DNA from: Photobacterium profundum SS9
GTDB lineage: Bacteria; Pseudomonadota; Gammaproteobacteria; Enterobacterales; Vibrionaceae
Length of the DNA: 64,000 nucleotides
Assembly (NCBI RefSeq): GCF_000196255.1
Contig: NC_006371.1
Location: forward strand, 448,332 to 512,331
Reading direction: 5' to 3'
Each line of letters opens with the position of its first letter. Positions within the stretch are counted from its first letter, which is position 1. Of the stretch, positions 15,130-55,894 are shown piece by piece. The notes under the pieces were generated by a model. The model worked only from the letters and a program-made list of their open reading frames with translations. It searched no databases and was not told the origin of the DNA. The position numbers were made by a program, and so were the translations under genes.

Positions 15130-16347
15130 ATGGGTGGCGTTTTAGGTATGATTTTAGCAGGCGGAGAAGGCTCTCGTTTGCGTCCATTAACAGATTCACG
15201 TACAAAACCCGCAGTTCCATTTGGTGGTAGCTACCGCTTAATTGATTTTGCATTGAATAATTTTGTAAATGCTGATTTTTTAAAAATTTATGTTCTAACC
15301 CAATTCAAATCTCAGTCTTTATATGTGCATATGAAAAAAGGCTGGAATATCACGGGCATTACGGATCGTTTTATTGATCCAATTCCAGCACAAATGCGAA
15401 TGGGCAAGCGTTGGTACGATGGTACTGCTGATGCGATTTACCAAAATTTAAGCTTTATTGAACTTGCTGAACCTGAGCATGTTTGTATTTTTGGTAGTGA
15501 TCATATTTACAAAATGGACATTAAGCAGATGCTTAATTTTCATAAAGAAAAAGAAGCGGAATTAACGGTTTCTGCATTGCGTATGCCTTTATCAGAAGCG
15601 AGTGCTTTTGGTGTTATCGAGGTTGATGAAAACGGCTGCATGGTTGGTTTTGAAGAAAAGCCAACTAACCCTAAGTCTATTCCTGGCGACCCAGAAAATG
15701 CACTTGTTTCTATGGGTAACTATATATTCAATAAAGATACGCTATGTACTGAACTTGAAGAAGATGCAGCAAAAGAAGATTCAAGCCACGACTTTGGTAA
15801 AGACATCATCCCTAAGCTATTTCCACTTGGTAAAGTCTATGTTTATGATTTTACAACCAACATTATTCCAGGTGAGAAGAATACCGGTTACTGGCGCGAT
15901 GTAGGTACGATTGAAGCGTACTGGCAAGCACACATGGATTTACTTTCTGAAGATGCGCCGTTCTCTTTGTATAACCGTCAATGGCAGCTACACACTCATT
16001 ACCCACCGCTTCCACCTGCAACAATTTTAGACAGCGAAAACAGTAAAGTTGATATTAACAACTGTATGATTTCAGCTGGTAGCTACATTCGTGGCGCACA
16101 AATACATAAATCAATTTTAGGCTTCCGTACCAATGTTGACCATAACACAATGATTTCAGAATCTGTGATTTTGGGCGATGTGAAAATCGGTGCGAATTGC
16201 TCAATACGTAAAGCGATTATTGATAAAAATGTACACATTGCTCCAGGAACGGTAATCGGTGAAAATCCTGAAGAGGATAAGAAAAACTACCACGTTTCTG
16301 ATGAAGGTATTGTCGTAATCCCGAAAGGAGCGAAAATTGGCTACTAA
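15130..16347 (+). CDS. glgC: glucose-1-phosphate adenylyltransferase
   Basis: Makes ADP-glucose, the sugar donor for glycogen. The 405-residue protein begins with the nucleotidyltransferase motif (LAGGEGSRLRPLTDSRTKPA, residues 9-28), then FGGSYRLIDFALNN and, later, the sugar-phosphate site around GFEEKPTNPKSIPGDP. The C-terminal third is a left-handed beta-helix (GDVKIGANCSIRKAIIDKNVHIAPGTVIG). A near-ideal AAGGAGG seven bases upstream supports the start. It overlaps glgA by 11 bases, so the two are translated from one message. Adjacent amylases and debranchers place it in a glucan storage and use region. Confidence 0.95.
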   Translation: MGGVLGMILAGGEGSRLRPLTDSRTKPAVPFGGSYRLIDFALNNFVNADFLKIYVLTQFKSQSLYVHMKKGWNITGITDRFIDPIPAQMRMGKRWYDGTADAIYQNLSFIELAEPEHVCIFGSDHIYKMDIKQMLNFHKEKEAELTVSALRMPLSEASAFGVIEVDENGCMVGFEEKPTNPKSIPGDPENALVSMGNYIFNKDTLCTELEEDAAKEDSSHDFGKDIIPKLFPLGKVYVYDFTTNIIPGEKNTGYWRDVGTIEAYWQAHMDLLSEDAPFSLYNRQWQLHTHYPPLPPATILDSENSKVDINNCMISAGSYIRGAQIHKSILGFRTNVDHNTMISESVILGDVKIGANCSIRKAIIDKNVHIAPGTVIGENPEEDKKNYHVSDEGIVVIPKGAKIGY

Positions 16348-17863
16348 GAAAACGTCGTTAACAAAGCATCCATTGAAAATTTTATTTGTTTCATCTGAAG
16401 TAGAAGGGTTTGCAAAAACAGGAGGGTTAGCCGATGTTGCTAAGTCTCTGCCTGCGGCCTTGAAGAAGATGGGGCACGATGTTCGAATTGTAATGCCTTT
16501 CTATCAGACAATTAACGGTAAAGATAACGCTGTTGCTATTTTGTCTACCGAGCTGCTTGTTGAGTCACAGCCATTTGCTGTGAGTTATCAAGTGATGCAA
16601 CTCGATGAAGGTAATGTGCCTGTCTATGCGTTAGATGCACCACAATATTATGATCGACCAGAATTGTATGCGGAAAACAATCAAGCATATGCAGATAATG
16701 GTGAGCGTTTTACATTTTTAAGCGCCGCATCGTTAGATTTGTGTGAAAAACTGGGTTTTCAACCCGATGTGATTCACTGTAACGATTGGCATACCGGGTT
16801 AATTCCATTCTTATTAAAAACGCGTTACGCAGAGAGTGATTTCTTTGCTAAATCGAAAAGTGTGATAACGATTCATAATGCCGTTTTTAAGGGGGTATTT
16901 AACTACGATCAATACAGCCTAATACCTGAATTGATTCAACGTCGCTATATCAATGCTGAAATGGATCCATCGCATATCAGCATGCTTAAAGCGGGTGTTG
17001 CGTATGCAGATAAAGTGAACGCGGTTAGCCCTAATTATGCATCAGAGCTTTTAACACATTTAGGTTCGCATGGTATGGAAGCTGATTTCCAAAATCGTGC
17101 TAAAGATTTGTATGGCATCATTAATGGGTGCGACTACGATGATTGGAATCCTGAAACTGATGTGTACATAAAGCAAAAGTTTAAAGCCAATAAAGTGAGC
17201 TTAGCTCGCGGGAAAAAAGCGTGTCGACGTGATTTGCAAAAACAAGTTAACTTACCTGAAGTAGATGTACCTGTTTATGGAATGGTTTGTCGCTTGACCG
17301 AGCAAAAAGGGCTTCACTATTTAATTCCTGTGCTTGAAGATTTTTTATTGAATGACGTACAAGTGGTGATTGTCGGAACGGGTGATCCAACGTTAGCCAG
17401 TGCTCTGCGTGACATTAGCGAACAGCATAGTGATAAATTTGCTTTTGTTGAAACATACAGCAACCCACTAGCACACTGTGTAGAAGCGGGTGTTGATTTC
17501 TTTATGATGCCTTCTGAATTTGAACCATGTGGTTTGAATCAGATGTACAGTTTAGCGTATGGCACATTACCTATCGTTCGCAGCGTCGGTGGTCTAAAAG
17601 ATACTGTTATCGATTACGATCAAACACCGCAGGTCGCCACTGGCTTTATTTATGATACGCCAACTCCAGAGGCGTTATTAATAAAGTTACAACGAAGCTT
17701 GCTACTTTATTGTCAGCGTCCTCAAGAATTTAAACGATTACAGCAAAATGCGATGGCGTGTAAATTTAATTGGGATGAATCAGCAGAGCAATATCTAGAT
17801 ATGTATCTAGGTGGTGAGCAAAGTTTGGTCAATGAAATCTGCAATGACAAGGTAGACGCTTAG
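16337..17863 (+). CDS. glgA: glycogen synthase (ADP-glucose)
   Basis: Extends alpha-1,4-glucan chains from ADP-glucose (GT5). It carries KTGGLADVAKSLP from residue 27, the donor-binding motif, and EPCGLNQMYSLAYGTLPIVRSVGGLKDTV near 393, the C-terminal acceptor and nucleotide region. The start is a TTG inside the end of glgC, with AGGAG six bases upstream; no ATG lies before the conserved LKILFVSSEVEGFAKTGG. The protein therefore has about 13 residues more than the usual GlgA N-terminus. No glgB or glgP is adjacent. A terminator follows at 17898-17923. Confidence 0.94.
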   Translation: MATKKTSLTKHPLKILFVSSEVEGFAKTGGLADVAKSLPAALKKMGHDVRIVMPFYQTINGKDNAVAILSTELLVESQPFAVSYQVMQLDEGNVPVYALDAPQYYDRPELYAENNQAYADNGERFTFLSAASLDLCEKLGFQPDVIHCNDWHTGLIPFLLKTRYAESDFFAKSKSVITIHNAVFKGVFNYDQYSLIPELIQRRYINAEMDPSHISMLKAGVAYADKVNAVSPNYASELLTHLGSHGMEADFQNRAKDLYGIINGCDYDDWNPETDVYIKQKFKANKVSLARGKKACRRDLQKQVNLPEVDVPVYGMVCRLTEQKGLHYLIPVLEDFLLNDVQVVIVGTGDPTLASALRDISEQHSDKFAFVETYSNPLAHCVEAGVDFFMMPSEFEPCGLNQMYSLAYGTLPIVRSVGGLKDTVIDYDQTPQVATGFIYDTPTPEALLIKLQRSLLLYCQRPQEFKRLQQNAMACKFNWDESAEQYLDMYLGGEQSLVNEICNDKVDA

Positions 17864-21003: not shown

Positions 21004-21912
21004 TCATGCTTGATAGTGGCCATTCAAAATCAGCTGCTGCTTGATATCCGCAACATGGTCGACCAATAACTCATTTAAATGGTAGATCCCAACCGTACCT
21101 TTTTGTCCTTCTTTTTTTAATGGAAGCGGGACAATATTTACCTGCGCGAAGTAGTCAGTCATACTCATTGGATACGGCATGATTGCGGTTGTCGAGGCTA
21201 GCATATCGATACTGGCAGTCAGTGAGTTGATCTCGTAAACGATGCGTTCTGATACCTTTTGTCTATCTCTTTCTAGCTGTTTGGGCTGTGGGTTTTCTAT
21301 TAGATGCAGGTAAGCTTCTGAATCTGGTGTTACCTGCAATAGAGGATAAAGTGCCATATCTTCTTCTCGATGGTTCACCAGTAGTGGATGGTTTTGGTGT
21401 ACGAACATTGCTTCTTTATCTTGTAGAAGGGGGATGAATGTGACGTTACACCGATGAGACAAACCAACAATTTCATGACCAACAAAAAGGTCGATTTGAC
21501 CATGGATGAGCATATCCATCAGCTTAAGGTGGTTACCAAATTCCAGCTGAATAGAGATTGAAGGGTTGCTGGCACTATATTGCTGCAATGCTTGTTTTAC
21601 AAAAATTTCCCACCATGCATCACCAGTACCCATTTTGATTTTTTCAGTTTTTCTCTCAATAAGATCAGCCATCTTATGCAGTAATGAGTCATGTCGTCGC
21701 TGTAGTTCAAGCGCTTGTTCTTGAAGGAGCACACCATATTCAGTGAGTTCAACCCCTTTCGATTTTCGGATAAAAAGAGGTACGCCAAAGCTTGCCTCCA
21801 GCTTCTTCATGTTATTCGTTAGGGTTGGTTGGCTGATGCCGAGATGATTAGCTGCAAGGCTAATATTACTTAGCTCAGCGACGACCAGAAATTGTTTGTA
21901 GCTTTTATCCAT
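21004..21912 (-). CDS. LysR family transcriptional regulator
   Basis: The protein of about 302 residues has an N-terminal winged helix-turn-helix (YKQFLVVAELSNISLAANHLG and SQPTLTNNMKKLEASFG) and a C-terminal periplasmic-binding-like effector domain. It is divergent from the GH13 alpha-glucosidase gene and very probably controls it. The ATG at 21912 gives a standard LysR N-terminus but has a poor Shine-Dalgarno; a GTG at 21957 would add 15 residues. A perfect inverted repeat in the gap (22023-22047) is a plausible binding site. The effector is unknown; a sugar or sugar phosphate is a guess from context. Confidence 0.87.
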   Translation of the reverse strand: MDKSYKQFLVVAELSNISLAANHLGISQPTLTNNMKKLEASFGVPLFIRKSKGVELTEYGVLLQEQALELQRRHDSLLHKMADLIERKTEKIKMGTGDAWWEIFVKQALQQYSASNPSISIQLEFGNHLKLMDMLIHGQIDLFVGHEIVGLSHRCNVTFIPLLQDKEAMFVHQNHPLLVNHREEDMALYPLLQVTPDSEAYLHLIENPQPKQLERDRQKVSERIVYEINSLTASIDMLASTTAIMPYPMSMTDYFAQVNIVPLPLKKEGQKGTVGIYHLNELLVDHVADIKQQLILNGHYQA

Positions 21913-22022
21913 AAGGCGAGGAATACGGTCAATAAAGAGTTTGACGACAAGTCTCACATTTATTGAATTTACTTGGCATCCTTATTGGTTTGAAATTGCG
22001 ATCTCGATCTCCTTAATTATTG

Positions 22023-22047: not shown

Positions 22048-22163
22048 GAGCTGGGTAGGGTATTTTAAAACAGTCAAACAAACGATTATGATATCAATAT
22101 TAAAGATACCAATATTAAAGGTATTACTGTTTAACTGAAGCTTGTTTAAGGGAGCCTTTGTCC

Positions 22164-23801
22164 ATGAAAATGACCCCAAAATGGTGGCATGATGCTGTTG
22201 TTTATCAGGTTTATCCACGCAGTTTTTGCGATTCAAATAACGATGGCATGGGTGATCTGCAAGGCATCATCAGCAAGCTTGATTACATCAAAAAATTAGG
22301 TGTTAATGTTGTTTGGTTGTCACCTGTTTATCGTTCACCAATGGATGATAATGGTTACGATATTTCTGACTATCAAGATATCGCTGCAGAGTTCGGTTCG
22401 ATGGAAGATATGCAGCAATTACTTGCAGAGGCCAAACAGCGCGATATTCGCATCATTATGGATTTAGTTGTTAACCATACATCTGATGAGCACCCATGGT
22501 TTATCGAATCACGTAAATCGAAAGATAACCCATATCGTGATTACTATATTTGGCGTCAGCCTAATGAAGATGGTTCAGTGCCTGATGATCAAGGATCTGT
22601 CTTTGGCGGTGGTGCTTGGGAATTTGATGACACCACGGGTGAATATTACTACCACATCTTCTCTAAGAGACAACCAGACTTGAACTGGGAAAACCCCAAA
22701 ATTCAAGAAGAAGTGCATAAGATGATGAACTGGTGGATCGATCAGGGTATTGGTGGTTTCCGTCTTGACGTTATCGATCTTATTGGTAAAGAAATCGATA
22801 AGAAAATTACGGGTAATGGGCCTCGTCTTCACCCGTTGCTGCAGGAAATGAACAAAGCAACGTTTGGTGATAAAGATCTGCTTACTGTAGGGGAAACGTG
22901 GGACGCGACTCCTGAAACTGCTAAGTTGTACAGTAATCCTGCACGTAATGAGTTTTCAATGGTTTTCCAGTTTGAGCATATTTCTCTGACTTGGAAGCAA
23001 GGTGACAAATGGAATCCAATTGCGCTTGATCTACCTAAATTCAAAAATGCGTTAACTAAGTGGCAGATTGAGCTGGCTGATGAGGGGTGGAACTCACTGT
23101 TCTGGAACAATCATGACCTTCCTCGTGCAGTATCAAAGTTTGGCGATGACGGCCAGTATCGAGTTGAATCCGCTAAAATGCTCGCCACAACATTGCATAT
23201 GATGAAAGGTACTCCGTATGTCTATCAAGGCGAAGAGATCGGTATGACGAACGTTGCGTTTGACAGCATTGATGACTACCGTGATATCGAAACATTGAAT
23301 TTCTACAAAGAACGTACAGAAAATGGTGTTGCACCTGAAACCATGTTGGCAGCGGTACATGAAAATAGCCGTGATAATGGCCGTACACCAATGCAGTGGA
23401 ACAATAATAAAAATGCGGGTTTCTCAGAGCAGCAACCGTGGTTGCAGGTTAATCCTAACTATCCAGAAATCAACGTAGATGCTGCGCTAGAAGATCAGAA
23501 CTCGATCTTCTACCACTATCAAAAATTGATTCAACTGCGTAAGTCATTATCAGTGATTGTACATGGTGCTTTTGAACCAGTATTTGAAGATCATGAACAG
23601 GTATTCGGTTACCTTCGTTCTGATTCCCAACATCGTTTGTTTGTACTTAATAACTTTACGGGCGAAGAAGTCACTGTTTCTATGCCAGAGCCGCTTCAAA
23701 CTGAACATGCCGAATGCATTATTTGCAACTATGAATCACATCAGCAGTTAAGCTCAACCTTAACCTTGAAGCCTTTTGAGTCTTTTGCTGTTTTGATTTA
23801 A
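22164..23801 (+). CDS. GH13 alpha-glucosidase (oligo-1,6-glucosidase type)
   Basis: Hydrolyses short alpha-glucosides in the cytoplasm. The 545-residue protein begins KWWHDAVVYQVYPRSFCDSNNDGMGDLQGI, the hallmark of GH13 oligo-1,6-glucosidase, alpha-glucosidase and trehalose-6-phosphate hydrolase. Catalytic motifs are DLVVNHTSDEHPWF, GGFRLDVIDLI (nucleophile near 202), VGETWDA (acid/base near 243) and WNNHDLPR (near 317). The subfamily reads DLVVNHTS, which in the family usually goes with alpha-1,6 or mixed specificity, so substrate is uncertain. GGGAG lies about ten bases before the ATG. It is divergent from a LysR gene and followed by a terminator. Confidence 0.9.
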   Translation: MKMTPKWWHDAVVYQVYPRSFCDSNNDGMGDLQGIISKLDYIKKLGVNVVWLSPVYRSPMDDNGYDISDYQDIAAEFGSMEDMQQLLAEAKQRDIRIIMDLVVNHTSDEHPWFIESRKSKDNPYRDYYIWRQPNEDGSVPDDQGSVFGGGAWEFDDTTGEYYYHIFSKRQPDLNWENPKIQEEVHKMMNWWIDQGIGGFRLDVIDLIGKEIDKKITGNGPRLHPLLQEMNKATFGDKDLLTVGETWDATPETAKLYSNPARNEFSMVFQFEHISLTWKQGDKWNPIALDLPKFKNALTKWQIELADEGWNSLFWNNHDLPRAVSKFGDDGQYRVESAKMLATTLHMMKGTPYVYQGEEIGMTNVAFDSIDDYRDIETLNFYKERTENGVAPETMLAAVHENSRDNGRTPMQWNNNKNAGFSEQQPWLQVNPNYPEINVDAALEDQNSIFYHYQKLIQLRKSLSVIVHGAFEPVFEDHEQVFGYLRSDSQHRLFVLNNFTGEEVTVSMPEPLQTEHAECIICNYESHQQLSSTLTLKPFESFAVLI

Positions 23802-23862: not shown

Positions 23863-23898
23863 GGCTCTGTTCAATTGTTTTTGAACAGAGCCTTTTTT
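23863..23898 (+). terminator. terminator of the alpha-glucosidase gene
   Basis: GGCTCTGTTCAA and TTGAACAGAGCC form a perfect 12-bp stem followed by TTTTTT. Confidence 0.9.
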
Positions 23899-23915: not shown

Positions 23916-25004
23916 ATGATGCATTATATATATGAAGGTACTGATGTGGTTTTTGATATTCCTCAGAAGGGAAAACACATCTACTTGATTGGTAGTTTTA
24001 CGAATTGGCAAAAAAAAGAGGGATATAAGTTCCTTGAAATAGATAATAATCTCTTACTGAAAATAAGTCGTCAGGCAGTGAATAAAATCTGAAATTCTGG
24101 ATATATCGAATATTATTTCTGGGATGACGAAAAAAAACAGCCTTTGCCATATAACGAGAATCACCCAGCTGGATACTGTTTTAATAATCAATTCAATGGT
24201 AGCTATAATTATTTATTACTGCCTGAAAATATCACAACTGATGATTTAGAGACAATTATCAATGATTGTGAGCAGTCATTTCGAATCAAAACGATGGCAT
24301 GTGAATTTAAGTCTGATTGGGTGTTAGCCAATTTTAGAGAAGTAAACAGCGGGAATTTGGCGAAAAAGACACTCTTTCGTTCTTACCATCCAGTTATTCC
24401 TTCAAGAGTTGGGCACCCCAAACTAAGAGAGATCGAAGCCCAACGTCAACAAATAGCCATGCGTTTACTTGAAACGAACAATATACGCACTGTCATCAAT
24501 CTGTCAGAAACAGCGCAAGAACTTGATGAATACCTTCAGGCAGCCGAACCGAGTTACTACAAAACACTGTGGCTCGGTAAGAGTGTGATAAGTGTTCCTG
24601 TTGCTTATGAAACGGTATATTTTATGTCTGATCGGGATGAGAGTTTTAATCCAGATGAATTGGGATTCCAGACTGGAATCCAAGCAGTGATTCAGCAGAT
24701 TGCTGATCACCAGCCTCCTTATCATGTTCACTGCCGGTTAGGCTCTGACCGAACAGGCGTTGTTATTGCTTTTTTACAGTTATTCATGGGTGCAGACAAG
24801 GCAAAGATAGCGGATAGTTATTTGAAAACCAATCAGATGGCAATCGGGGAATATCGTAGTATTCGTTTATTGGAACATGCGCTAGAGCAAGCCTTGGGGC
24901 ACGAGTGTTTTGATGATGGTCACTCGATAACGCGTGATTATCTATTGTCTTTAGGGTTAGCGAGTAATGTTATTGAGTTAGCGTATAAAAACTTGGCAGG
25001 ATAA
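23916..25004 (+). pseudogene. laforin-like protein: glycogen-binding E-set domain plus tyrosine phosphatase, with in-frame TGA
   Basis: One frame runs from ATG 23916 to 25004, interrupted only by TGA at 24090-24092 (codon 59). The N-terminal 110 codons contain HIYLIGSFTNWQ, the signature strand of CBM48/AMPK-beta-type glycogen-binding domains. After a linker, NFREVNSGNLAKKTLFRS and VHCRLGSDRTGVV form a protein-tyrosine-phosphatase-like domain with CX5R (Cys at codon 273, Arg at codon 279, Asp before Arg as in the Y_phosphatase3 group). Glycan-binding before phosphatase is the order found in laforin, the glycogen phosphatase. The TGA may be a mutation (TGG would give Trp), a base error, or real with restart downstream; a TTG at 24144 could open the phosphatase part but has no clear ribosome site. 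It lies between a glucosidase and GlgX. Confidence 0.7.
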
Positions 25005-25111: not shown

Positions 25112-27061
25112 CTACTCTCGAGAGAGTATTGTGATCGATTGGGTACTTTGCATGTAGGTGGTTTGCGTTTGACGGTTACCAAGAACAGACTCTGAGGTAT
25201 CACATATAATACGCCATTTACCGCCAGCGGGTAAACGGTATCGCGTTGGAATTGTTGAGCTATTTATTAGGAATAACAACTCTTTACCATTTTTATATAG
25301 GCCAAGATAGAGAGCAAAGGCTTCAAGGTTTTGCCAATCATCAGTGTTCATTAGTTTACCATTCGAATGGTTCCAGCGAATGCGGTGGTGTCCACGTTCA
25401 CGACCACTGAATGCCCGAATAAACGGACTCATCACTTCTTTTCTGGCTTTTACCATTCCTGCTAGCCAGTTTTTGAAGCTGATATTATCAGGTGATAATA
25501 TCCAGTTGGCCCAGCTTATCTCATTATCTTGGCAGTAAGCATTGTTATTGCCACCTTGAGTATGAGATAGGCTATCTACTGCAAGTAGATGAGGAATCCC
25601 AAAGCTAAATAGTAGCGTTGTCATAAGGTTGCGTTTTTGACGTTCGCGCTTATACAGAACCGACAGGTTATCTGTTTTCCCTTCAACCCCGTGGTTAAAT
25701 GAACGATTATCGCCATGTCCATCAAGGTTTCTTTCACCATTTGCTTCATTGTGCTTGTGGTTGTAAGACACAAGATCTTGCAGCGTAAAACCATCATGAT
25801 AGGAAATGAAATTGACGGGTAATTTGTCTGGCCAACCTCCCGCACTGAAGAAATCGCGAGACCCCATTAGTCGAGTTGCGAATTCTTTGATATTGTTCTT
25901 ATCGCCTAGCCAATGACTCTTGACGGTATCGCGAAATTTATCATTGCACTCGTTCCAGCCTCGCGGGAAATTACCAAGCTGATAGCCGTCAGGACCTACA
26001 TCCCAAGGTTCAGCAATCAATTTTACCTTTTGTAAAATTGGATCTTGTTCAATGGCTTTAAAGAAGGCACTTTGGGAGTCAAAACGATGCCCGTTACGTC
26101 CTAGTGTTGCTGCTAAATCAAAGCGGAAACCATCAATTTGGTAATGGGTTACCCAGTGTCGAAGAGTATCGATTACAAGGGTTAGGCTTGGTTGATAAGT
26201 AAGATCAACGGTATTACCACAGCCTGTGTAGTTGTGATGATTTTTATTACTATCAAGAAGGTAATAATGTTTATCCAAGCACTTCAAATGAAATTTGGGC
26301 CCACCTTCACCGCCTTCTGCAGTGTGGTTGAACACGATATCCATGATGACTTCAATACCTTCTTTGTGTAATTCCCTTACCATGGTCTTCATTTCTGTGA
26401 CGGCATCACTCATCGCATAGCGCGGCTCTGGTGCCATAAAGCACAGGCTGTTATAGCCCCAGAAATTCACTTTATCCATCTTAAGCAAATGGGGTTCAGA
26501 CATGCATGAAGTGACTGGGAGCAATTGTAGGCTGGTAATGCCTTGTTCTTTATAGAACTCGATTGCAGCAGGTTGGCAGAGGCCAAGGTAAGTGCCTCTG
26601 TATTGCTCTTCAATATGCTCTTGAAGCTGAGTAAACCCTTTAACGTGCGTTTCACACAGGATGGTTTCTTCGTACGGTACCTGTGGAAAGACGGTGTTTT
26701 GCCAATCAAATTGATGGTCGATAACAACAGATTTAGTGAATTTCCAGCTTTCTTCTGCCGTGAATGGTTCTACATAAAAAGGTGTTTGATTGAGGGCCTG
26801 CGCATATGGGTCGAGAATTAATCTTTCATTGTGCTTGTCTTTAATTTGAAAGCCATAAACCTGTCCTGCTTTAATATTAGGAACGAAGGTATAGTGGATA
26901 TCTAAGTGTGTATGGTCAAAGTCAATAATTGTTTTTTTATTTTCAATGTCGAATAGAACTAATTTAATTTCTTGGTTATCAGTACTGTGAATTGAAAAAT
27001 TACAACCTTGATCACATAATGTAGCCCCTAAAGGATAAGCTTGAGCTAATTTCGCAAACAT
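25112..27061 (-). CDS. glgX: glycogen debranching enzyme, GlgX/isoamylase type
   Basis: Cleaves alpha-1,6 branches in limit dextrins (GH13_11). The 649 residues match GlgX (about 657). An N-terminal CBM48-like domain (PLGATLCDQGCNFSIHS) precedes the barrel with DIVFNHTAEGGEGGP, DGFRFDLAATLGR (nucleophile), LIAEPWDVGPDGYQLGNFP (acid/base) and NFISYHDGFTLQDLVSYN. There is no signal peptide, so it is cytoplasmic. It is transcribed away from lamB, with 518 bases of shared upstream DNA containing MalT-type motifs on its own strand at 27453-27481, but about 390 bases from its start, so their effect on it is unclear. Confidence 0.92.
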   Translation of the reverse strand: MFAKLAQAYPLGATLCDQGCNFSIHSTDNQEIKLVLFDIENKKTIIDFDHTHLDIHYTFVPNIKAGQVYGFQIKDKHNERLILDPYAQALNQTPFYVEPFTAEESWKFTKSVVIDHQFDWQNTVFPQVPYEETILCETHVKGFTQLQEHIEEQYRGTYLGLCQPAAIEFYKEQGITSLQLLPVTSCMSEPHLLKMDKVNFWGYNSLCFMAPEPRYAMSDAVTEMKTMVRELHKEGIEVIMDIVFNHTAEGGEGGPKFHLKCLDKHYYLLDSNKNHHNYTGCGNTVDLTYQPSLTLVIDTLRHWVTHYQIDGFRFDLAATLGRNGHRFDSQSAFFKAIEQDPILQKVKLIAEPWDVGPDGYQLGNFPRGWNECNDKFRDTVKSHWLGDKNNIKEFATRLMGSRDFFSAGGWPDKLPVNFISYHDGFTLQDLVSYNHKHNEANGERNLDGHGDNRSFNHGVEGKTDNLSVLYKRERQKRNLMTTLLFSFGIPHLLAVDSLSHTQGGNNNAYCQDNEISWANWILSPDNISFKNWLAGMVKARKEVMSPFIRAFSGRERGHHRIRWNHSNGKLMNTDDWQNLEAFALYLGLYKNGKELLFLINSSTIPTRYRLPAGGKWRIICDTSESVLGNRQTQTTYMQSTQSITILSRE

Positions 27062-27579: not shown

Positions 27580-28938
27580 ATGAAACACAAGTTAGTACCC
27601 GTAGCAGCGGCGATCTTTGCAGCATTAACTTCTTATAACGTAGCAGCTGAATCTGGAACTGATGTTCTGACTGACGGTTGGGAAGTACACGGTTACGGTT
27701 CTATGAACTTCCGTATGACTGAAGGCGAATCTATTGATACTGAATACGGCAAGCCTGACTACAAAACTGCTGGTACACATGGTAAAAGTACTAACCAAGT
27801 TGAGTTCGTAATTAAGAAACACACTGAACATCAAAATGGCGTATGGTCTGACTTCGTTGTTCGTTCAGAATACGGTAACGGTAACTCATATGCTTACTCT
27901 TCTTCAGGTAGCCAAAAAGATAACACGACTGCTCAGTTTGAAGTTAAAGAGTCATTTGTCGAGATTGGTGGTATTTCATTCCTTGGTGAAGATACATCGA
28001 TCTGGGGTGGTCAACGCTTCCTGAACCGTTCTGCGGGTATTCTTTCTGGTGAGTTCTGGAAACAGTCTTCAGGCGTTGGTGCTGGTATTCAAACAAAATT
28101 AGCTGGTAACACCGCTGGTTTTGCTGTTGTAACTGCGGATCCAGATGCAGGTGCTGCTGATTCTTACAGCATTACAGAATGTAAGAAAGAAGACGGTTCG
28201 GCTTCTACTGATCCAACTGATTGCAAAATCAAGAAAGATGATGCAGGTGATCGCTCTACTCTGACATCTGTTGATTTCTACTACTATGGTGTTCAAGCAC
28301 TAGGTGGTAGCTTTGATTTCGATTTGAAACTAATGTCTCAGGCGAACAAAGATTCAGGCTCTGACAGTGGCTTCGGTGCTTCTATCACTTATAACCGCGA
28401 TTACTACGGTCTAGACGGTTGGACGCAAACTGCGATTGCATACGGTGAAGGTGTTGCACAAAACCGTGGTGTAAACTTTGGTGGCTGGTCTGGCGGTAAT
28501 GACGATGCACAATCTATTTTCTTGACATCTTATGGTGTACTAAACATTACTGATAAATTACAGATGGGTTCTGAGCTGACTTACCTTGGTGCATTGGATG
28601 AACTATTTGGTGCGGAAGACCTGAAGCGTTACCTGATTGCTGTTCGTCCTTCATATAAAGTGAATGATAACCTACGTCTTGAAATGACTGCGTCTTACGG
28701 TCATGAAGAAGGTGCTGACGGTTACTGGGGTCGTTCAGGCGATGCAGTTGAAAGTGATATCTACAACGTAGAACTAGCATCTGCATTCACTGTTAATGCT
28801 GACTACTTTGGTCGTCCACAAATTAAACCTTACGTGAGCTACATCAAAGCTGATGATCGCGAAAGTGCAAAACAGATTGGTATAAAGAACGGCGATGACG
28901 AAGTTGTTGTTGGTGTTCACACTGAAATCTGGTTCTAA
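27580..28938 (+). CDS. lamB: maltoporin
   Basis: Outer-membrane trimeric porin for maltodextrins. The 452-residue precursor has a signal peptide (cut after NVAA, residue 23) and a mature N-terminus with GWEVHGYGSMNFRM, then QVEFVIKKHTEHQNG, GGQRFLNRSAGIL and a C-terminus ending in VHTEIWF with the terminal Phe of outer-membrane barrels. Loops are rich in Asp and Ser. AAGGGA before the ATG gives a good start. A terminator follows, then malM, the usual neighbour. Expression should depend on MalT and CRP (sites at 27413-27497). Confidence 0.95.
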   Translation: MKHKLVPVAAAIFAALTSYNVAAESGTDVLTDGWEVHGYGSMNFRMTEGESIDTEYGKPDYKTAGTHGKSTNQVEFVIKKHTEHQNGVWSDFVVRSEYGNGNSYAYSSSGSQKDNTTAQFEVKESFVEIGGISFLGEDTSIWGGQRFLNRSAGILSGEFWKQSSGVGAGIQTKLAGNTAGFAVVTADPDAGAADSYSITECKKEDGSASTDPTDCKIKKDDAGDRSTLTSVDFYYYGVQALGGSFDFDLKLMSQANKDSGSDSGFGASITYNRDYYGLDGWTQTAIAYGEGVAQNRGVNFGGWSGGNDDAQSIFLTSYGVLNITDKLQMGSELTYLGALDELFGAEDLKRYLIAVRPSYKVNDNLRLEMTASYGHEEGADGYWGRSGDAVESDIYNVELASAFTVNADYFGRPQIKPYVSYIKADDRESAKQIGIKNGDDEVVVGVHTEIWF

Positions 28939-28951
28939 ACCGATTAGTGTC

Positions 28952-28977
28952 AAAGGCAGCCTTCGGGCTGCTTTTTT
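28952..28977 (+). terminator. terminator of lamB
   Basis: AAAGGCAGCC-TTCG-GGCTGC-TTTTTT. Partial read-through into malM is likely, as in other lamB-malM pairs. Confidence 0.85.
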
Positions 28978-29069
28978 GAGTATATATCTATTAGATTCTG
29001 CTGTAGATTTAATGAGATACGAATAGCTATATACCCATAATAATCTAATAAGGGTACGGGAGTTCAAAG

Positions 29070-29948
29070 ATGAAAGTGATTAAAACAACATTAGCTGCAC
29101 TGCTTGCAGCAAGCCTGATAGGCTGCGCGGCTTCCCCGACAACAGAGATGGTCAAAGACGTTTCAATAACTGCGGCGACTTGTTGTAATTCATACAGTGA
29201 ATTTTCCTGGATTCCGATGACGGACGATAGTGTCGACTTTGCTATTGATGAATATTCTCAGGTAGGTGATTTTCCTGAAGGTAAAAGTTACTTTGTAGGC
29301 TTCGTCATCCCCCAGAATGTGGAACGTATGAGTGTTGACCTGAAGAGTTGGATGAAGACAGCTGGAGTGTTTGCACCAAAAGTTCTTCTGTTGGATCCGC
29401 AGTTTCAGCCAGTGAAGATGATTACATTGGATGAATTTGAGGTTAAGCCATCAAATATATTTAGCCTATCCAGTTATCAGCATCGTTTTGTAATGGAGCA
29501 GAGTAAGACGCCGTACATGGTGGTTTATTCACCGCAGGAATACCGTGAAGGAAGTATTCAGATCCCACACCCTGAACGTCTTCGAGCTGAAGAGCTCGGC
29601 CTTGCAAGACCAATGGTTACCGATCCTGTTATTCAGCATCAGAAGTTTGGCTCGTTAGAGATTGATCTAAAGCCAATTAACTTGCGTTCATACCGTGCGA
29701 GTGAAGTGACGGCTGCTACGGCTATTGTTGCGTCTGCACCCGTTGCTGCTGCGGTATCAACAGCGACCCCTGCTGTCAAAACCAGCAACATAACCATGTT
29801 GCCAGAAACAGAGGCATTCTATAATGGCCAAATTAAAGCGGCTGTTGAGAAAAATGAGATGCACAAAGCCCTTCAATTAGTTGAAGAGGCCAAACGAGCG
29901 GGATCAAGCTCAGCTGAAACTACGTTTGTTGAACTAATCAAAAAGTAA
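29070..29948 (+). CDS. malM: maltose operon periplasmic protein MalM
   Basis: The 292-residue product has a lipoprotein signal (LAASLIGC, Cys at about 19), unlike the plain signal peptide described for E. coli MalM. The body has MalM-like features: CCNSYSEFSWIPM, a beta-sandwich middle and an alanine-rich linker (VASAPVAAAVSTATPAV) before a C-terminal helical part. MalM is periplasmic and its role is not well settled; it probably assists with maltodextrin near LamB. It lies 131 bases after lamB. A strong hairpin follows. Confidence 0.88.
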   Translation: MKVIKTTLAALLAASLIGCAASPTTEMVKDVSITAATCCNSYSEFSWIPMTDDSVDFAIDEYSQVGDFPEGKSYFVGFVIPQNVERMSVDLKSWMKTAGVFAPKVLLLDPQFQPVKMITLDEFEVKPSNIFSLSSYQHRFVMEQSKTPYMVVYSPQEYREGSIQIPHPERLRAEELGLARPMVTDPVIQHQKFGSLEIDLKPINLRSYRASEVTAATAIVASAPVAAAVSTATPAVKTSNITMLPETEAFYNGQIKAAVEKNEMHKALQLVEEAKRAGSSSAETTFVELIKK

Positions 29949-32436: not shown

Positions 32437-33621
32437 ATGAAACGTGTTCTTAAAACTCTGACTCTTTGTTCTATAACAATGGCACTGGCTTTTCCTATGG
32501 CCGCTTCGGCGATGCAGGAAGGCGAAATTCTTATTTGGATTAATGGCGATAAAGGTTATGACGGTCTAGCTGAAGTTGGTCGTCAGTTTGAAGAAGATAC
32601 CGGTATTAAAGTAAACGTTCAGTACCCTGAGTCGCTAGAATCAAAATTCCAGCAGGTTGCTGCGACGGGTGGCGGTCCGGATATTATTTTCTGGGCGCAT
32701 GACCGTTTTGGTGGTTATGCAAAATCAGGTCTACTTGCAGAAGTTAAACCGTCTGCAGAATTCAAGGACAAGTTAGTTGATTTCAGCTGGGATGCTGTGA
32801 CTTATGACGGTAAGTTAGTGGGTTACCCTGTTGCTGTTGAATCGCCATCGCTTATCTATAATAAAGACCTATTGGCTGAAGCTCCTGCAACTTGGGAAGA
32901 GTTGGTTGCCATCGAAAAAGAAATGAAGGCGAAAGGCAAGAAAGCCATCATGTGGGATGTGAAGAATGCTTATTTCACATGGCCAATGATTTCGGCAAAT
33001 GGCGGTTACGCTTTCAAGAAAACTGAAAATGGTTTTGATGGCAAACAAGTAGGTGTTAACAGCGAAGCAGGTATTGCTGGTTTAAGCTTCTTGGTTGATT
33101 TAGCGAAGAAAGGTGTCGTCTCTCCTGATATGGATTACGCCGTTGCAGAATCTGAATTTAACAAAGGTAACGTGGCGATGACCATCAATGGTCCATGGTC
33201 GTGGGGTAACCTTGAAAAATCTAAAATCAACTACGGTGTCGCTGTTCTACCAACGTTGAATGGTGGTAAATCAAACCCATTCGTTGGTGTATTAAGTGCA
33301 GGCATTAATGCTGCTAGCCCGAACCAAGATTTGTCGGTTGAATTCCTTGAGAATTATCTACTGACTAATGAAGGCCTTAAGACTGTCAATGACGACAAGC
33401 CATTAGGTGCTGTTACGTTGAAGTCATACCAACACATTTTGTCTAAAGACAGCCGAATTGCCGCTACGATGACCAATGCTGAAAATGGTGAAATCATGCC
33501 TAATATTCCTGAAATGACGGCATATTGGTTTGCTGAAGGTGCCGCGATTGAAAACGCACTGCTAGGTCGTCAAACAGTGAAAGAAGCGCTTGATACAGCG
33601 GCTTCTCAAATCAAAAAATAA
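32437..33621 (+). CDS. malE: maltodextrin-binding protein MalE, paralogue 1
   Basis: Periplasmic binding protein of the maltose ABC transporter. The 394-residue precursor has a signal peptide (cut after ASA, residue 25) and the MalE pattern [57 protein letters not shown] and [12 protein letters not shown]. It is a close paralogue of malE2 at 40940, though the transporter genes malF and malG follow only malE2. The next gene here is a GH133-like debrancher, after a hairpin at 33661-33686. Confidence 0.93.
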
Positions 33622-33759: not shown

Positions 33760-36555
33760 GTGAACAGGTTAGCACAAGCACCATATAACGAGCAGCTGTA
33801 CGTTAAAGGCACATTTAATGGTTGGGGTGATGACACACCGATGTCTTACCTTGGTGAAGGCTGTTATCAGGCTGTAATTTGCTTTTCGGCGGATCAACAT
33901 AGTTTTAAAATTTCCGATCAGCAGGGCAGTGAGTTGCTGACTTTTTCTGCTGATAAATACAAAGCAGTAGCGTGTGCTGTTGATCAGGTTCAGCCTTTAA
34001 TGACAGCAAAGGGGATTGGCAATGATCTGACGTTTCTAGCACCTAGTACTGGATTGTATACGGTTACTTTGACAGTGATAGATACGCAGCCATCACTACT
34101 GATTTCATTCGGTGGTGAGAATAACGATGCCGAGCCTGACCGTGAACTTATTCAAGCTGAGTTTGTTATCCAATCAAAAACTGGCACGTTACTCGCTAAA
34201 GCAAAGCCAGTTCTAAAGCCACAAGATCTATTTGAGCAGTTGGCTATTCAGGTGAGTGAAAGTGCGCCGTTTGTGTTTGGCGACAATGTCGATGGTTATT
34301 ATGAAGGTGCAACCCATGGTTTTGTTGCCGCAGGTAAATACCGTCATAAGCAGGGTTGGTATCTAGGAACGTTTGCATCGTTTGTTGATGGTGCTATTAA
34401 TGATAAAAATGATGCACAGAGCGCAGAAATTCTACCTTACGGTGTGACACATTATTATCCAAACCAAGCGTTAGATACGATGATGCTATTTTCGCAGCAA
34501 CGCGCATCAGCATTAACGGTTTCTTCAGAAAATGCAGCGACCTTGGCTATTGCTCCACAGCTTAATCTTGCGATTAATACTTCGTCGGTAAAAGTTTTCG
34601 ATAACGGAATGGTGTATGAACTTGATTCATCTTTGCGTCAGGAAAATACACCATCCTTTATAGCTATTTGTGCGAATAAGTCTTTCCGATTTAGGGAGGC
34701 AACGTTCACCGAGATGCCTGCGCTGAAAGAGGTGATGCACCTAAGTGGCAGTCATGTTAAACCTGTGATTGAAACCAGCCAAAAAGAAACCAGCTTCACC
34801 GTTTATCTGGCCTTTGCTGAGACAGAAGAGCTGGCTATTGAGCAAGCTAATGCACTGCTGGATCAAGATGGCTACACACTGCATCAGCAGCAAACCTATG
34901 ACATGTTGACACAGTCCTACCTATGGACCTCAGATCTTGAATACAACCGCGCATTAATGTGGGCAAAGGCATCGGGTAAAGTTTTTGTCTCTAATGAATT
35001 TGGTAAAGGGATTTGGGCGGGCTTACCTTGGTTCAAAGATTGCTGGGGACGTGACTCTTTCATCGCCTTACCGGGTATTACATTGGTTAATGGTGACTTC
35101 GATGATGCTAAGACCATCATTGATAACTTCGCCTCTATGCAGCTAACCGATGATCAAAGCTTAAATTATGGTCGGATCCCGAACCGTGTTACCAGTTTGA
35201 CCAACATTATCTATAACACGACAGATGGAACACCGTGGATGGTGCGGGAAGTATGGGATTACTTACGCTATAGCGGTGATCTTGATTATGCGAAAACAAT
35301 CTACCCGATCGTGCAGACATACATTGATGGGATCGAGAAGAATTATCTGGATCAACATGGCTTGATGACTCATCGTGATCCTGATACTTGGATGGATGCC
35401 AAGTTAGAAGGCAAAGTACCTTGGTCGGCAAGGGGTAACCGCGCTAATGATATTCAGGCGTTGTGGTATACCAGCCTGAAGGTGGCGATTGAACTGGCTC
35501 GGTTGAATCAGGATCAGGCATCTGCTTTGCGCTATCGTGCAATGGCAGATAAGGTGCAATTCAGTTTCCAAAAGATGTTCTGGGATGAGCAGACTGAAAT
35601 GCTGGCCGATCGCCTGAAGGAAGATGACAGCCGTGATTTGCAGGTCCGCCCGAACCAGCTAATGACCTTAACGGTACCTTTTGATGGTGGCTTGGTTGAT
35701 AAGTTGATTGGTGCGAAGGTGGTGAAAAATGCAGTAAGTGAATTATTGTACCCTTGGGGAATCACGTCGCTATCGCAGTATGATCCTGATTTCCACCCGT
35801 TCCATGCCAATCGAGATGAATACCATAAAGATGCGGCTTACCATAACGGAACGATTTGGGGCTGGAATGCAGGCTTTACTGTCTCAAGTTTGGTGAAGTA
35901 TGGCTATGCTGATTTTGCTTATGAGCTAACAAAAAACCTATCTCAGCAGATTCTATCTATTGGTCATCGTGGGGCAATGAGCGAAAACCTAGATGCTTTC
36001 CTGAGCACCGAAGGAGGATTGACGACGACGGGAACCTATGCACAAGCATGGTCTGTGTCAGAATTTACTCGTAATGGCTATCAGGATTATATGGGATTTT
36101 CGCCGAACCTCTTGGCCGATAAGGTAACACTGGCTCCTTGTCTACCTTCATCGTGGCAGTCTGCACAGGCGGTATTGCGTTTTGGTAACAATAATGCCTT
36201 GAATGTCAGTTTTGAACGCTCTGCAAACGGCGCAGAAAACTATCAGCTGAGTTACCGACATGTATCTGGGGAGCAGCTTGAGTTAGTATTGTTTGCGGAT
36301 GATAAAGCCAAATATCAACTCGATCTTGAACTTGGGGAGCAGGTTGTGACGGTCAGCTTTGATCCAGTGAAAGCAGTTGCTGAAGTGAACGGTGAATGTG
36401 TGGGTATTATTTGTGTGCAACCGGGTTATCAGGCTCAAATTGGTGAGTTGCAATTTGCACAGCCGGATTTGGATCTTGATTTCAGAGTGCTAAAAAACCA
36501 ACATGTTTTACAGCAACAGGTAGAATCGAGCGGTTTTGCTAAGGCAACAGATTAA
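33760..36555 (+). CDS. glycogen debranching enzyme of GH133 (amylo-alpha-1,6-glucosidase) type
   Basis: The 931-residue protein has an N-terminal glucan-binding E-set domain (QLYVKGTFNGWGDDTPM, about 10-110), a middle beta domain and a C-terminal alpha/alpha-barrel (about 400-800) with GKGIWAGLPWFKDCWGRDSFIALPG, DTWMDAK, PWSARGNRANDIQALWY and YHNGTIWGWNAG. The WFKDCWGRDSF segment is typical of the GDE-C catalytic region. It would remove alpha-1,6 glucose stubs, complementing GlgX. The start is GTG, with AAGGA about eight bases before. There is no signal peptide. It lies directly downstream of malE1, so is likely MalT-regulated. Confidence 0.82.
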   Translation: MNRLAQAPYNEQLYVKGTFNGWGDDTPMSYLGEGCYQAVICFSADQHSFKISDQQGSELLTFSADKYKAVACAVDQVQPLMTAKGIGNDLTFLAPSTGLYTVTLTVIDTQPSLLISFGGENNDAEPDRELIQAEFVIQSKTGTLLAKAKPVLKPQDLFEQLAIQVSESAPFVFGDNVDGYYEGATHGFVAAGKYRHKQGWYLGTFASFVDGAINDKNDAQSAEILPYGVTHYYPNQALDTMMLFSQQRASALTVSSENAATLAIAPQLNLAINTSSVKVFDNGMVYELDSSLRQENTPSFIAICANKSFRFREATFTEMPALKEVMHLSGSHVKPVIETSQKETSFTVYLAFAETEELAIEQANALLDQDGYTLHQQQTYDMLTQSYLWTSDLEYNRALMWAKASGKVFVSNEFGKGIWAGLPWFKDCWGRDSFIALPGITLVNGDFDDAKTIIDNFASMQLTDDQSLNYGRIPNRVTSLTNIIYNTTDGTPWMVREVWDYLRYSGDLDYAKTIYPIVQTYIDGIEKNYLDQHGLMTHRDPDTWMDAKLEGKVPWSARGNRANDIQALWYTSLKVAIELARLNQDQASALRYRAMADKVQFSFQKMFWDEQTEMLADRLKEDDSRDLQVRPNQLMTLTVPFDGGLVDKLIGAKVVKNAVSELLYPWGITSLSQYDPDFHPFHANRDEYHKDAAYHNGTIWGWNAGFTVSSLVKYGYADFAYELTKNLSQQILSIGHRGAMSENLDAFLSTEGGLTTTGTYAQAWSVSEFTRNGYQDYMGFSPNLLADKVTLAPCLPSSWQSAQAVLRFGNNNALNVSFERSANGAENYQLSYRHVSGEQLELVLFADDKAKYQLDLELGEQVVTVSFDPVKAVAEVNGECVGIICVQPGYQAQIGELQFAQPDLDLDFRVLKNQHVLQQQVESSGFAKATD

Positions 36556-40843: not shown

Positions 40844-40939
40844 CCGAGGGTTCATTACTGGTGGATGATACAGACTGCAAATTGTGCTGCAGAGGATTTT
40901 CTGGAGTACAACATATAACAATCATGAAGGATGTTAGCA

Positions 40940-42121
40940 ATGAAGAAAGTCCTCAGTACTGTCGCATTTTGTACCCTTGCAGCTTTAGGTTCTGTCTCTG
41001 CACATGCAGCGATTGAAGAAGGCCAATTGACCATTTGGATTAATGGTGACAAAGGTTACAACGGCTTGGCAGAAGTAGGTAAACAGTTTGAAGAAGACAC
41101 AGGCATAAAAGTGACAGTTGCTTTTCCTGATGGTCTATCTGAGAAATTTCCTCAGGTAGCGGCTGCTGGTGATGGTCCAGATATCGTATTTTGGGCGCAC
41201 GATCGCTTTGGTGGTTACGCCAAATCTGGTTTGTTAGCTGAAGTTAAGCCATCTAAAGAACTAAAAGATAAAATCATCGATTTTACTTGGGATGCTGTGC
41301 AGTACGAAGGTAAGTACATCGGCTACCCAGTTGCAGTTGAAGCACTTTCTTTAATTTATAACAAGGATCTTGTTCCAAACCCACCTAAGAACTGGGAAGA
41401 CGTTGAAGCACTAGACAAGAAACTTCAGAAAGATGGTAAGAAAGCCATCATGTGGAACCTAAAAGAACCGTACTTCACATGGCCACTACTGTCTGCTGAC
41501 GGTGGCTACGCGTTCAAGTTTACTGCTGAAGGCTACGATGTGAAAGATGTGGGTGTTAACAATGCTGGCGCGAAGCGTGGCATGACGTTCATCAAGAACC
41601 TTATTGACAAAAAAGTGATCTCTGCCGATATGGACTACAGCATTTCAGATGCTGAGTTTAACAAAGGTAACGTAGCAATGACTATTAACGGCCCATGGGC
41701 ATGGGGTAACGCTGATAAGTCAGGCATTAACTACGGTGTTGCTGTGCTTCCTAAGCTAAATGGTAGCCCATCTAAGCCATTCGTCGGTATCCTGACTGCG
41801 GGTATCAGCTCTGCGTCACCAAACCAAGATTTAGCTGTTGAGTTTATCGAAAACTACCTACTGACTGATGAAGGTCTAGGTAAAGTTAACGATGATAAGC
41901 CACTAGGTGCTGTTGCGCTGAAATCATTCCAGAAGAAGCTAAACAAAGATCCCCGTATTGCTGCCACTATGAATAACGCAATGAACGGTGAAATCATGCC
42001 TAACGTTCCGCAAATGGCTGCATTCTGGTATGCCCAGGGTAATGCAATTAAGAACATTGTTGATGGTCGTCAGGACATTAATGGTGCGCTAGATGAAGCC
42101 GCTGGTCACATGCTTAAGTAA
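40940..42121 (+). CDS. malE: maltodextrin-binding protein MalE, paralogue 2
   Basis: The 393-residue precursor has a signal peptide (cut after AHA, near 24) and the same motif series as malE1: [57 protein letters not shown] and [12 protein letters not shown]. It heads malE-malF-malG. The ATG at 40940 is chosen over 40931 because AAGGA has the right spacing only for it. The mature proteins of the two paralogues align without large gaps by eye. A hairpin follows, before malF. Confidence 0.94.
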
Positions 42122-52468: not shown

Positions 52469-53251
52469 TTACACAGCCATGGCTTCAGGCTGTAAATACT
52501 GCTGCCATGCAGTTTGGTATAGATTTAATGACTCAGCTCTAAGTCTCGCTATCTGTGCTAATTCAAACTCAGAGATGTTACGTTCTTCTGTCATGCTTGC
52601 ACGTTCGATACGTTGGATTTCTTCGTATATCTTGTGTTCAGCACCATTTTTTACCGTAGATATGGCTTCTAAGTGAAGTTGAACTTCTGCAATCACTTGG
52701 CTTTTTGGTAAGCGTATTAATAATTTAAAATCACGGTAGCCAGAAGCTGTCGGGCTTTTAAAGCGATTTTTAACCGCAACAACAGAGACTTCTTTATTCA
52801 GCAGTTCTAATGACTGCATCAAACTCGGTATATCACTTGCTACTAATGAGCATCGTGCCAAATCAGTAATACGATGAGTTTCACCTTGTAACTCTGTCTT
52901 GATTTTTTCTTTAGCGCGTTCTTCTGATTTAACTGCTGGCACTAAAGCTTGAGTATTGGAATGCAATGCGATCTCACGAGCAAGAGTGTCTAATTCTTGC
53001 TGGGCATGTGTTGCTGCATGATACAGTTGGCTAAAATTACTGTAAGGCTGGGTAATATTCTGTTCTGTCCAGCTATTGACGTTATAAAGGCCACTTAGGC
53101 TACGCTGAAAAGACTTTTTACCTTCTTGTGTTTGGTAAGGGGAAACTTCATAGTCAGAATCTGAATATTGAGGTAGTGGTGCAGCGATCGAAGTACGACC
53201 GAAGACGATAAGGAGAACGAAGAAAGTACGAAGTACAGATTTCATGTGCAT
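52469..53251 (-). CDS. exported protein with RelA/SpoT-like nucleotidyltransferase motifs, paralogue 1
   Basis: The 260-residue product has a signal peptide (SVLRTFFVLLIVFGRTSIAA). The mature C-terminal half has ERAKEKIKTEL, ITDLARCSLVASDIPSL, VKNRFKSPTASGYRDFKLLI and VIAEVQLHLEAI. These line up with the order of RelA/SpoT synthetase motifs (R/K helix, D of DIxG-R, G-Y-R, E-x-Q), including the two acidic residues used for catalysis. The N-terminal 90 residues are different and of unknown type. CAGGAG precedes the start; the IS begins only 30 bases upstream, so its native promoter has been cut away. Whether it is active is unknown. Confidence 0.6.
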   Translation of the reverse strand: MHMKSVLRTFFVLLIVFGRTSIAAPLPQYSDSDYEVSPYQTQEGKKSFQRSLSGLYNVNSWTEQNITQPYSNFSQLYHAATHAQQELDTLAREIALHSNTQALVPAVKSEERAKEKIKTELQGETHRITDLARCSLVASDIPSLMQSLELLNKEVSVVAVKNRFKSPTASGYRDFKLLIRLPKSQVIAEVQLHLEAISTVKNGAEHKIYEEIQRIERASMTEERNISEFELAQIARLRAESLNLYQTAWQQYLQPEAMAV

Positions 53252-54913: not shown

Positions 54914-55696
54914 TTAACTTACGGCCAATTTAGGCTGTAAATATTCTTGCCAAGCAGAACTATAAAGATACTGTGATTGATTACGTAACTGTCTTATTTT
55001 TGCTAATTCAATATCATTTAACTGACGATTATTAGCTTTAGCTATACGTTCAATTGTTTGAATTTGTTCATATAATTGGTGTTCTTTACCATTTTTTATA
55101 TCAGAAATTCCCTCTAAATGAAGCTGTATCTCTACAATATGCTGGCTGTTTGGAAGACGGACCAACATTTTCAAATCTCGATAGCCTGATTTTGCAGGTT
55201 GTTTGAAACGGTTTTTTACTTCAACAATCGTGACTTCTTTACTCAGAAGTTCAAAAGTTTGCACTAAACTATTTATGTCATTGGCAACTAAAGACCCTCG
55301 TGCTAGGTCTGTTAATTTATGTACACTTCCATTCAATTCTGTTGCTATTTTATATTCAGCTCTGTCTCGTGATTTAATGCCCGGTGATGAAGCGCTTGTA
55401 CCAGTAATCATCGATGTTTGTTGAATAAGTTGCTCTAATTCATTTTGAGCAATCTGGGCTTGTAGATAAAGAGAGCCGAAATCATTCTGAGGTTGTGTAA
55501 TGTGTGGCAGCTTCCAGGTTGGAATCGCATAGAGACCACTTAACGATCCTTGGAAAGATTTCTTGGACTCCTGTGATGATGAGGGAAGTTCGGATTCTGA
55601 ATCAATGTAATTGGGCAAACTGGCTGTAGCGATAGGGCTACGGCCTAATACAAATAAAAGAACAAAGCAGGTGCGAAGTATAGATTTGGTACCCAT
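54914..55696 (-). CDS. exported protein with RelA/SpoT-like nucleotidyltransferase motifs, paralogue 2
   Basis: The 260-residue product resembles paralogue 1 throughout: a signal peptide (SILRTCFVLLFVLGRSPIATA), a shared KKSFQGSLSGLY segment, then RDRAEYKIATEL, LTDLARGSLVANDINSL, VKNRFKQPAKSGYRDLKMLV and HIVEIQLHLEGI. The presumed catalytic Asp and Glu are kept. AGGAGC six bases before the ATG at 55696 supports the start. The pair arose by tandem duplication before the IS entered between them. No immunity-like gene was recognised beside either. Confidence 0.65.
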   Translation of the reverse strand: MGTKSILRTCFVLLFVLGRSPIATASLPNYIDSESELPSSSQESKKSFQGSLSGLYAIPTWKLPHITQPQNDFGSLYLQAQIAQNELEQLIQQTSMITGTSASSPGIKSRDRAEYKIATELNGSVHKLTDLARGSLVANDINSLVQTFELLSKEVTIVEVKNRFKQPAKSGYRDLKMLVRLPNSQHIVEIQLHLEGISDIKNGKEHQLYEQIQTIERIAKANNRQLNDIELAKIRQLRNQSQYLYSSAWQEYLQPKLAVS

Positions 55697-55894
55697 TAAA
55701 GCTCCTATATGCACATAACTTAGAAATTAAAACTGCCAAAGTGTGCTGGTTCGGATGAACAACATATCCGTGTACATAAGATATCTGTCTTCATTATCTT
55801 GTTTCAATGGGTGAATTGATAAAATGAGAGGTGGTAATATTAAGGTTGTGACGTGCTTCCCATTGTGTACATTTTGAATGATGCATATCAGCTG

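Follow-up and report, generated by a model that had tools for sequence, protein, structure and literature searches.

In a 64,000-nucleotide stretch of Photobacterium profundum SS9 (NC_006371.1, positions 448,332 to 512,331; hereafter the window), we identified a gene encoding an N-terminal E-set domain of the AMPK/CBM48 glycogen-binding type followed by a tyrosine-phosphatase domain of the PtpB class; it lies in a glucan cluster and is interrupted by one in-frame TGA. With moderate confidence, we read the product as an alpha-glucan-targeted phosphatase, and this is the best reading we can offer. The folds of both domains, the conserved catalytic Cys, Asp and Arg, the near-obligate fusion and the gene context are supported by computation; the protein may further bind glucan, act on it and take part in its degradation. 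Our best explanation, put forward tentatively, is that the gene, though broken in this genome, belongs to an undescribed family of bacterial enzymes whose E-set docks on alpha-glucan and whose phosphatase domain removes phosphate monoesters from it, helping GlgX and an oligo-1,6-glucosidase.

The initial annotation had placed an E-set/CBM48-like domain and a CX5R phosphatase in one frame between an alpha-glucosidase gene and glgX, and both the motifs and the location were borne out (Table 1). The phosphatase part scored 51.7 bits with the Pfam family Y_phosphatase3 (PF13350), whose cut-off is 22.2, and the same family was matched by 36 of the 37 members of alignment A1 at E<=1; the DSP domain (PF00782) scored 17.1 bits, short of its cut-off of 33.5. 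The best fold match was M. tuberculosis PtpB, placing the domain in the PtpB-type fold. The P-loop had the form HCRLG[ST]DRTG in 119/121 proteins (P0001-P0121), and across the 90 rows of alignment A2 the residues C273, R274 and D278 were invariant and R279 was present in 89. Where sources name family members, they nearly always call them tyrosine-type phosphatases. The arrangement of the two domains was predicted confidently, with a predicted template-modelling score (pTM) of 0.93.

Structure prediction of the N-terminal domain, proposed earlier as a check, returned a confident AMPK-type E-set fold when the domain was modelled alone (predicted local distance difference test, pLDDT, 92.5). In a Foldseek search with this model, ranks 1-38 were all AMPK entries (21-24% identity), followed by branching enzymes mixed with more AMPK rows, so the domain has the E-set glycogen-binding fold of AMPK1_CBM and CBM48. 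A passage of PMC4032982 names W100, K126, W133 and N150 as the glucan contacts of importance in AMPK. The counterpart of W100 (W31) was kept in 90/90 rows of A2 and that of N150 (N98) in 88/90, on a register that is partly inferred. Across the whole genome (6,403,280 bases in three contigs, among them C2 of 4,085,304 bases and C3 of 2,237,943 bases, which carries the window), AMPK1_CBM gave two matches at E<=0.1, both under the cut-off: the phosphatase gene and, 10 kb from it in one cluster, the N-terminus of a GDE-type protein (window 33790-33909). The GDE protein also matched a profile built from the family's N-terminal domain, over 17-25 residues only. Its E-set-like N-terminal piece reads LYVKGTFNGW. 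The CBM48 of the window GlgX did not match this profile (0.53), which speaks against a close tie between the two domains, and a piece of MalM taken as control did not match either (0.12). Against solved structures the profile found weak matches (best E 0.37), four of five rows being sugar-related (two of them the same enzyme) and the fifth a ribosomal protein. CBM20 was absent from the Pfam matches of the window protein and the 37 A1 members at E<=1, with the caveat that HMMER filters may drop weak matches.

The E-set and phosphatase domains form an old, near-obligate fusion. Protein searches yielded 54 matches and the best 120 of 151 matches; among the matches listed, the named members come from Photobacterium, Vibrio aestuarianus, a Spirochaetales metagenome-assembled genome (MAG), a Treponema MAG and, in a further search, Brucepastera parasyntrophica (Spirochaetota), and many others are unnamed. 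An E-set motif, defined loosely as the GSF[TN]xW type within the first 150-170 residues, was present in 120/121 of P0001-P0121, the exception (P0105) being a 182-residue piece. Intact homologues lacking a glucan-binding domain had been named as the finding that would overturn the initial annotation, and none turned up among close relatives. When only the phosphatase part was used as query, 62 of 63 proteins carried the motif; the one without it (P0132, 283 aa) comes from a 1997-base contig, and P0042, which is short at the other end, keeps it. Separate trees of the two domains gave the same two clades where checked, with support of 0.99 or more. The domain order of laforin, claimed earlier for this glucan-cluster gene, holds in intact homologues, which keep both domains.

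A scan of genome contigs with the read-through protein returned 12 loci, all in Photobacterium (46-97% identity). Matches were found in 23 of 296 genomes of the same taxonomic family, 16 of them full-length: 15 in Photobacterium, the window copy included, and one in another genus (G114), which would be a Vibrio to judge from its N-terminus, which resembles that of the V. aestuarianus copy. The remaining seven were one decayed piece, which has three stops (G076), and six partial matches in the region of the P-loop (G013, G075, G102, G169, G229, G262). Wider sampling of the phylum (398 genomes) and the order (394 genomes, the two samples overlapping) at E<=1e-10 gave a single full-length match besides that of the window's own genome: one copy in G779, which belongs to a different family of the order. 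The matches in G548 and G633 covered just the surroundings of the P-loop; together with the six partial matches above, they represent more distant phosphatases. A plasmid collection contained no match.

Most Photobacterium loci read have the gene between a glucosidase gene of oligo-1,6-glucosidase type and glgX. GlgX adjoins it in all 12 loci and the glucosidase in 9/12, the glucosidase lying about 6 kb off in L007, L009 and L013. In G779 (L029) the glucosidase, LamB, MalM and MalE neighbours are kept, and no GlgX was found within the 19.9 kb fetched. Among 52 Photobacterium genomes, several of which are those of loci L002-L012, the glucosidase (at least 80% identity) was present in 20, and the phosphatase gene in 16 of these 20 versus none of the other 32 (Fisher p 4.7e-10, for genomes that are related and not independent); of the 16 with both genes, one has a decayed phosphatase gene and one the TGA. 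Four glucosidase genomes had no phosphatase gene. In L038 and L039 the glucosidase gene and glgX face each other with no remnant found between them, as they also do in L042, which comes from a more distant cluster; L040 has other genes between the two, and L041 has no glgX in the stretch fetched. In another Photobacterium (G076, L030:3870-4235), the space between glgX and an intact glucosidase gene holds a remnant with three stops, which records a second loss. The phosphatase gene is a linked but dispensable accessory of the glucan cluster.

The gap between the glucosidase and phosphatase genes carries a terminator-like hairpin, possibly an attenuator, and a strong hairpin stood at the same place in 11/11 folded relatives with the gene behind the glucosidase (L002-L006, L008, L010-L012, L029, L031). 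It ends about 18-25 bases 5' of the phosphatase start codon, and further away in L011, L012 and L031. No hairpin was found there in L007, where the phosphatase gene is not behind the glucosidase. In two loci an exporter-like block, with a putative ABC ATPase and apparent partner genes, lies between the two genes (L007:3895-9548, L009:3890-9543).

The search for homologues without the TGA, recommended by the initial annotation, found the gene free of internal stops in 12/12 relatives from the contig scan, and among the full-length matches in the 296 family genomes the window copy had one TGA and the other 15 no stop. For four close genes including the window copy, the ratio of nonsynonymous to synonymous substitution rates (dN/dS) was 0.09-0.19 over six pairs and 0.03-0.27 by domain; comparisons of the window copy with its relatives gave 0.10-0.19, and those of intact copies among themselves 0.09-0.15. 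Because the relatives are open and dN/dS shows no relaxation in the window copy, the gene is real, its frame is not due to chance, and the stop is either recent or an error. Long decay under relaxed selection was rejected, since the dN/dS of the window copy is like that of intact genes. As the TGA leaves just 58 E-set codons, function in the window strain has probably been lost, and the gene in this genome is probably dead, or misread. The part downstream of the TGA is open by itself from TTG 24144 for 286 codons and lacks the first 76 positions.

An alternative compatible with any functional reading is that the window gene still works, the TGA being a sequencing error or read through, and we regard this as somewhat unlikely. 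It draws on the similar dN/dS of window and intact copies, which gives no sign of long decay. Readthrough as selenocysteine was rejected: the counterpart of codon 59 is Gly in 84/90 and Ala in 6/90 rows of A2 and never Cys, and only a weak fold (-7.6 kcal/mol over 54 bases) is predicted 3' of the TGA (no search for a SECIS element was made). The clearly decayed copy in G076, a different species, also speaks against a working gene, for it indicates that loss does happen.

In the mechanism we favour, the AMPK-beta/CBM48-type E-set would hold the enzyme on a branched alpha-glucan, either glycogen or a branched maltodextrin, and the Cys273-Asp278-Arg279 site would remove phosphate monoesters, most likely from the glucan itself. 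Their removal may clear the way for debranching by GlgX and hydrolysis by the oligo-1,6-glucosidase. Several results weigh against this scheme. AMPK1_CBM scored 18.5 bits on the N-terminal domain (E 0.0024), under its cut-off of 26.8, and matched 15/37 A1 members even at E 1. On the same partly inferred register, the K126 counterpart is Tyr in the window protein (Lys in 31/90 rows of A2) and that of W133 is not evident, so the lineage of the window gene lacks two of the four residues with which AMPK contacts glucan. CBM48-type folds also occurred in feruloyl esterases (rows 40-42 of the N-domain structure search), so the fold by itself does not prove binding to alpha-glucan. The P-loop is not of the HC[ST]AG[LM]GR type that a passage of PMC5779698 gives for LSF2 (HCSAGLGR) and OsttaDSP. 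PPDK_N has one match in the genome, PEP synthase (1285 bits vs 598); a glucan dikinase of that type was therefore rejected, and any phosphate on the glucan would have to come from elsewhere. Three proteins exceeded the Pkinase cut-off, which makes protein substrates possible. The copy in G114 (L028) lies outside any recognised glucan cluster: of 18 window genes tested, its locus matched only the phosphatase gene and an ABC ATPase (26%), and its four scanned neighbours are a sulfatase-family protein, an ArsP-type permease, a sigma factor and an endoribonuclease L-PSP type protein. The N-termini of P0043, of P0044 (a protein of a named spirochaete) and of similar proteins look like those of lipoproteins, and such members would act outside the cytoplasm; a loose lipoprotein-signal pattern marked 17/121 proteins, including two Photobacterium-like ones that are probably false hits. 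Finally, the four glucosidase genomes without the gene and the decayed copy make it dispensable.

The same observations bear on the nature of the substrate. If the E-set binds glucan and the substrate is instead a glycogen-bound phosphoprotein or an enzyme of the cluster, the protein would be a glycogen-targeted protein phosphatase, which we consider improbable. PtpB-like enzymes act on phosphopeptides and phosphoinositides according to a passage of PMC3091653, the AMPK-beta domain ties a kinase to glycogen according to one of PMC4032982, and the genome has the three Pkinase proteins and no evident glucan dikinase. However, all six Pkinase matches lie on C2, the other large contig, away from the cluster, and no kinase was recognised among the annotated cluster genes, the search for kinases and phosphoproteins going no further than this. 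It is likewise doubtful that the E-set no longer binds glucan and has become structural or regulatory, the substrate being a small phosphorylated metabolite such as a sugar phosphate or inositol phosphate. The two missing AMPK contacts, the location of the L028 copy and the confident interdomain arrangement suit this idea, as do G62 and E65 (90/90) and N60 (88/90 rows of A2), which are conserved in the family and lie outside the AMPK contact set; that the gene goes strictly with the glucosidase in Photobacterium and that W31 and N98 are retained across the family argues against it. A phosphoinositide phosphatase of the PtpB/ALP family that carries an additional domain is very improbable, since the signature Lys of the ALP loop is Ser or Thr in 119/121 proteins and PMC3091653 describes ALPs as a phosphatase domain only.

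Other genes of the glucan cluster are listed in Table 1. A phosphotrehalase (TreC) context was rejected: the glucosidase passed the NCBIfam phosphotrehalase subfamily model (627.4 vs 535) but failed the TreC equivalog (707.6 vs 799.05), and among solved structures it stands closest to oligo-1,6-glucosidases, which also counts against TreC. The window GlgX fell under the cut-off of a second GlgX model, NF002983. By eye, the cluster also holds two MalE-like binding proteins (32437-33621, 40931-42121), and two similar genes (52469-53251 and 54914-55714, both on the minus strand) flank a transposase-like gene (53290-54576).

Table 1 Features of the window around the phosphatase gene (positions of the 64,000-nucleotide stretch)
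Feature	Position	Strand	Remarks
E-set + tyrosine-phosphatase gene	23916..25004	+	ATG at 23916, stop ends at 25004; 362 codons (TGA counted) before the final stop
In-frame TGA, codon 59	24090..24092	+	single stop within the frame 23916-25004
E-set domain, CBM48/AMPK glycogen-binding type, residues 1-106	23916..24233	+	W31 on AMPK beta1 W100 (register partly inferred)
Tyrosine-phosphatase domain, residues 125-362	24288..25001	+	
P-loop HCRLGSDRTG (Cys273, Asp278, Arg279)	24729..24758	+	
Intrinsic-terminator-like hairpin, glucosidase/phosphatase gap	23863..23892	+	12 pairs and a T run
GH13 glucosidase	22158..23801	+	closest solved relatives oligo-1,6-glucosidase and glucan 1,6-alpha-glucosidase; best 1uok, E 8.8e-204
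GlgX-type glycogen debranching protein	25112..27061	-	convergent with the phosphatase gene; TIGR02100 689 bits, above cut-off 640.9
LysR-type regulator	21004..21957	-	divergent from the glucosidase gene, which it adjoins in relatives too
GlgC + GlgA, glycogen synthesis	15130..17863	+	Pfam domains; names in part presumed
Maltoporin-like LamB + MalM	27580..29948	+	LamB under the NCBIfam cut-off
GDE_C amylo-alpha-1,6-glucosidase	33760..36555	+	only other AMPK1_CBM-like N-terminus in the genome scan

In our searches of open-licence PMC papers we recognised no description of a bacterial glucan phosphatase. A passage of Gentry and Pace 2009 (PMC2714694) states that either domain occurs in bacteria but the two never in a single protein, and considers a bacterial glucan phosphatase unlikely; as far as architecture goes, the present family contradicts that statement. 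A 2025 paper (PMC13011383) calls it, in the part cited, interesting to speculate whether glycogen made without laforin, that of bacteria included, is phosphorylated, which leaves the bacterial case open. The family makes this question testable in marine Photobacterium with and without the gene. It is possible, if rather uncertain, that we are dealing with the first bacterial glucan phosphatase family, one that joined an AMPK-beta-type glycogen-binding domain to a PtpB-class phosphatase separately from laforin and SEX4 and is common to Vibrionaceae and spirochaetes. If so, bacterial glycogen or maltodextrin would carry phosphate that needs removal, in cells with no evident glucan dikinase, and glucan-docked phosphatases would have arisen more than once, from different parts.

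Compared with known systems, the N-terminal domain is closest to the glycogen-binding domain of AMPK beta, which supplied the best Foldseek matches and whose W100 and N150 counterparts are kept (register partly inferred). Unlike AMPK beta, it is fused to a phosphatase with no kinase complex and lacks the K126 and W133 counterparts in the window protein, and unlike members of AMPK1_CBM and CBM48 it stays under the Pfam cut-off. The catalytic domain resembles PtpB and the ALPs in fold and in the Asp of its P-loop. A passage of PMC3091653 gives the ALP/PtpB loop as HCXXGKDR[TA]G, with Lys and Asp strictly conserved and the Lys serving substrate binding, and the family departs from it by the Ser/Thr at the Lys position and by its extra E-set.

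SEX4 has its catalytic domain before a CBM48, whereas the E-set is N-terminal here, and the family differs from both SEX4 and LSF2 in the active-site loop. Laforin, which humans with Lafora disease lack, resembles the family in having a glucan-binding-type module N-terminal to a Cys-dependent phosphatase and in its tie to glycogen metabolism, which for the family is given by gene context. The kinship implied by the initial annotation did not survive, however, as the N-terminal module is of the AMPK-beta/CBM48 and not the CBM20 type of laforin, and the phosphatase belongs to the PtpB/Y_phosphatase3 class, not to the DSP domains, and has a different P-loop. Descent from laforin or SEX4 was rejected by the P-loop, the Pfam class and the ranking of folds. 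The architecture is convergent and laforin-ordered, and the protein probably works like laforin without being one.
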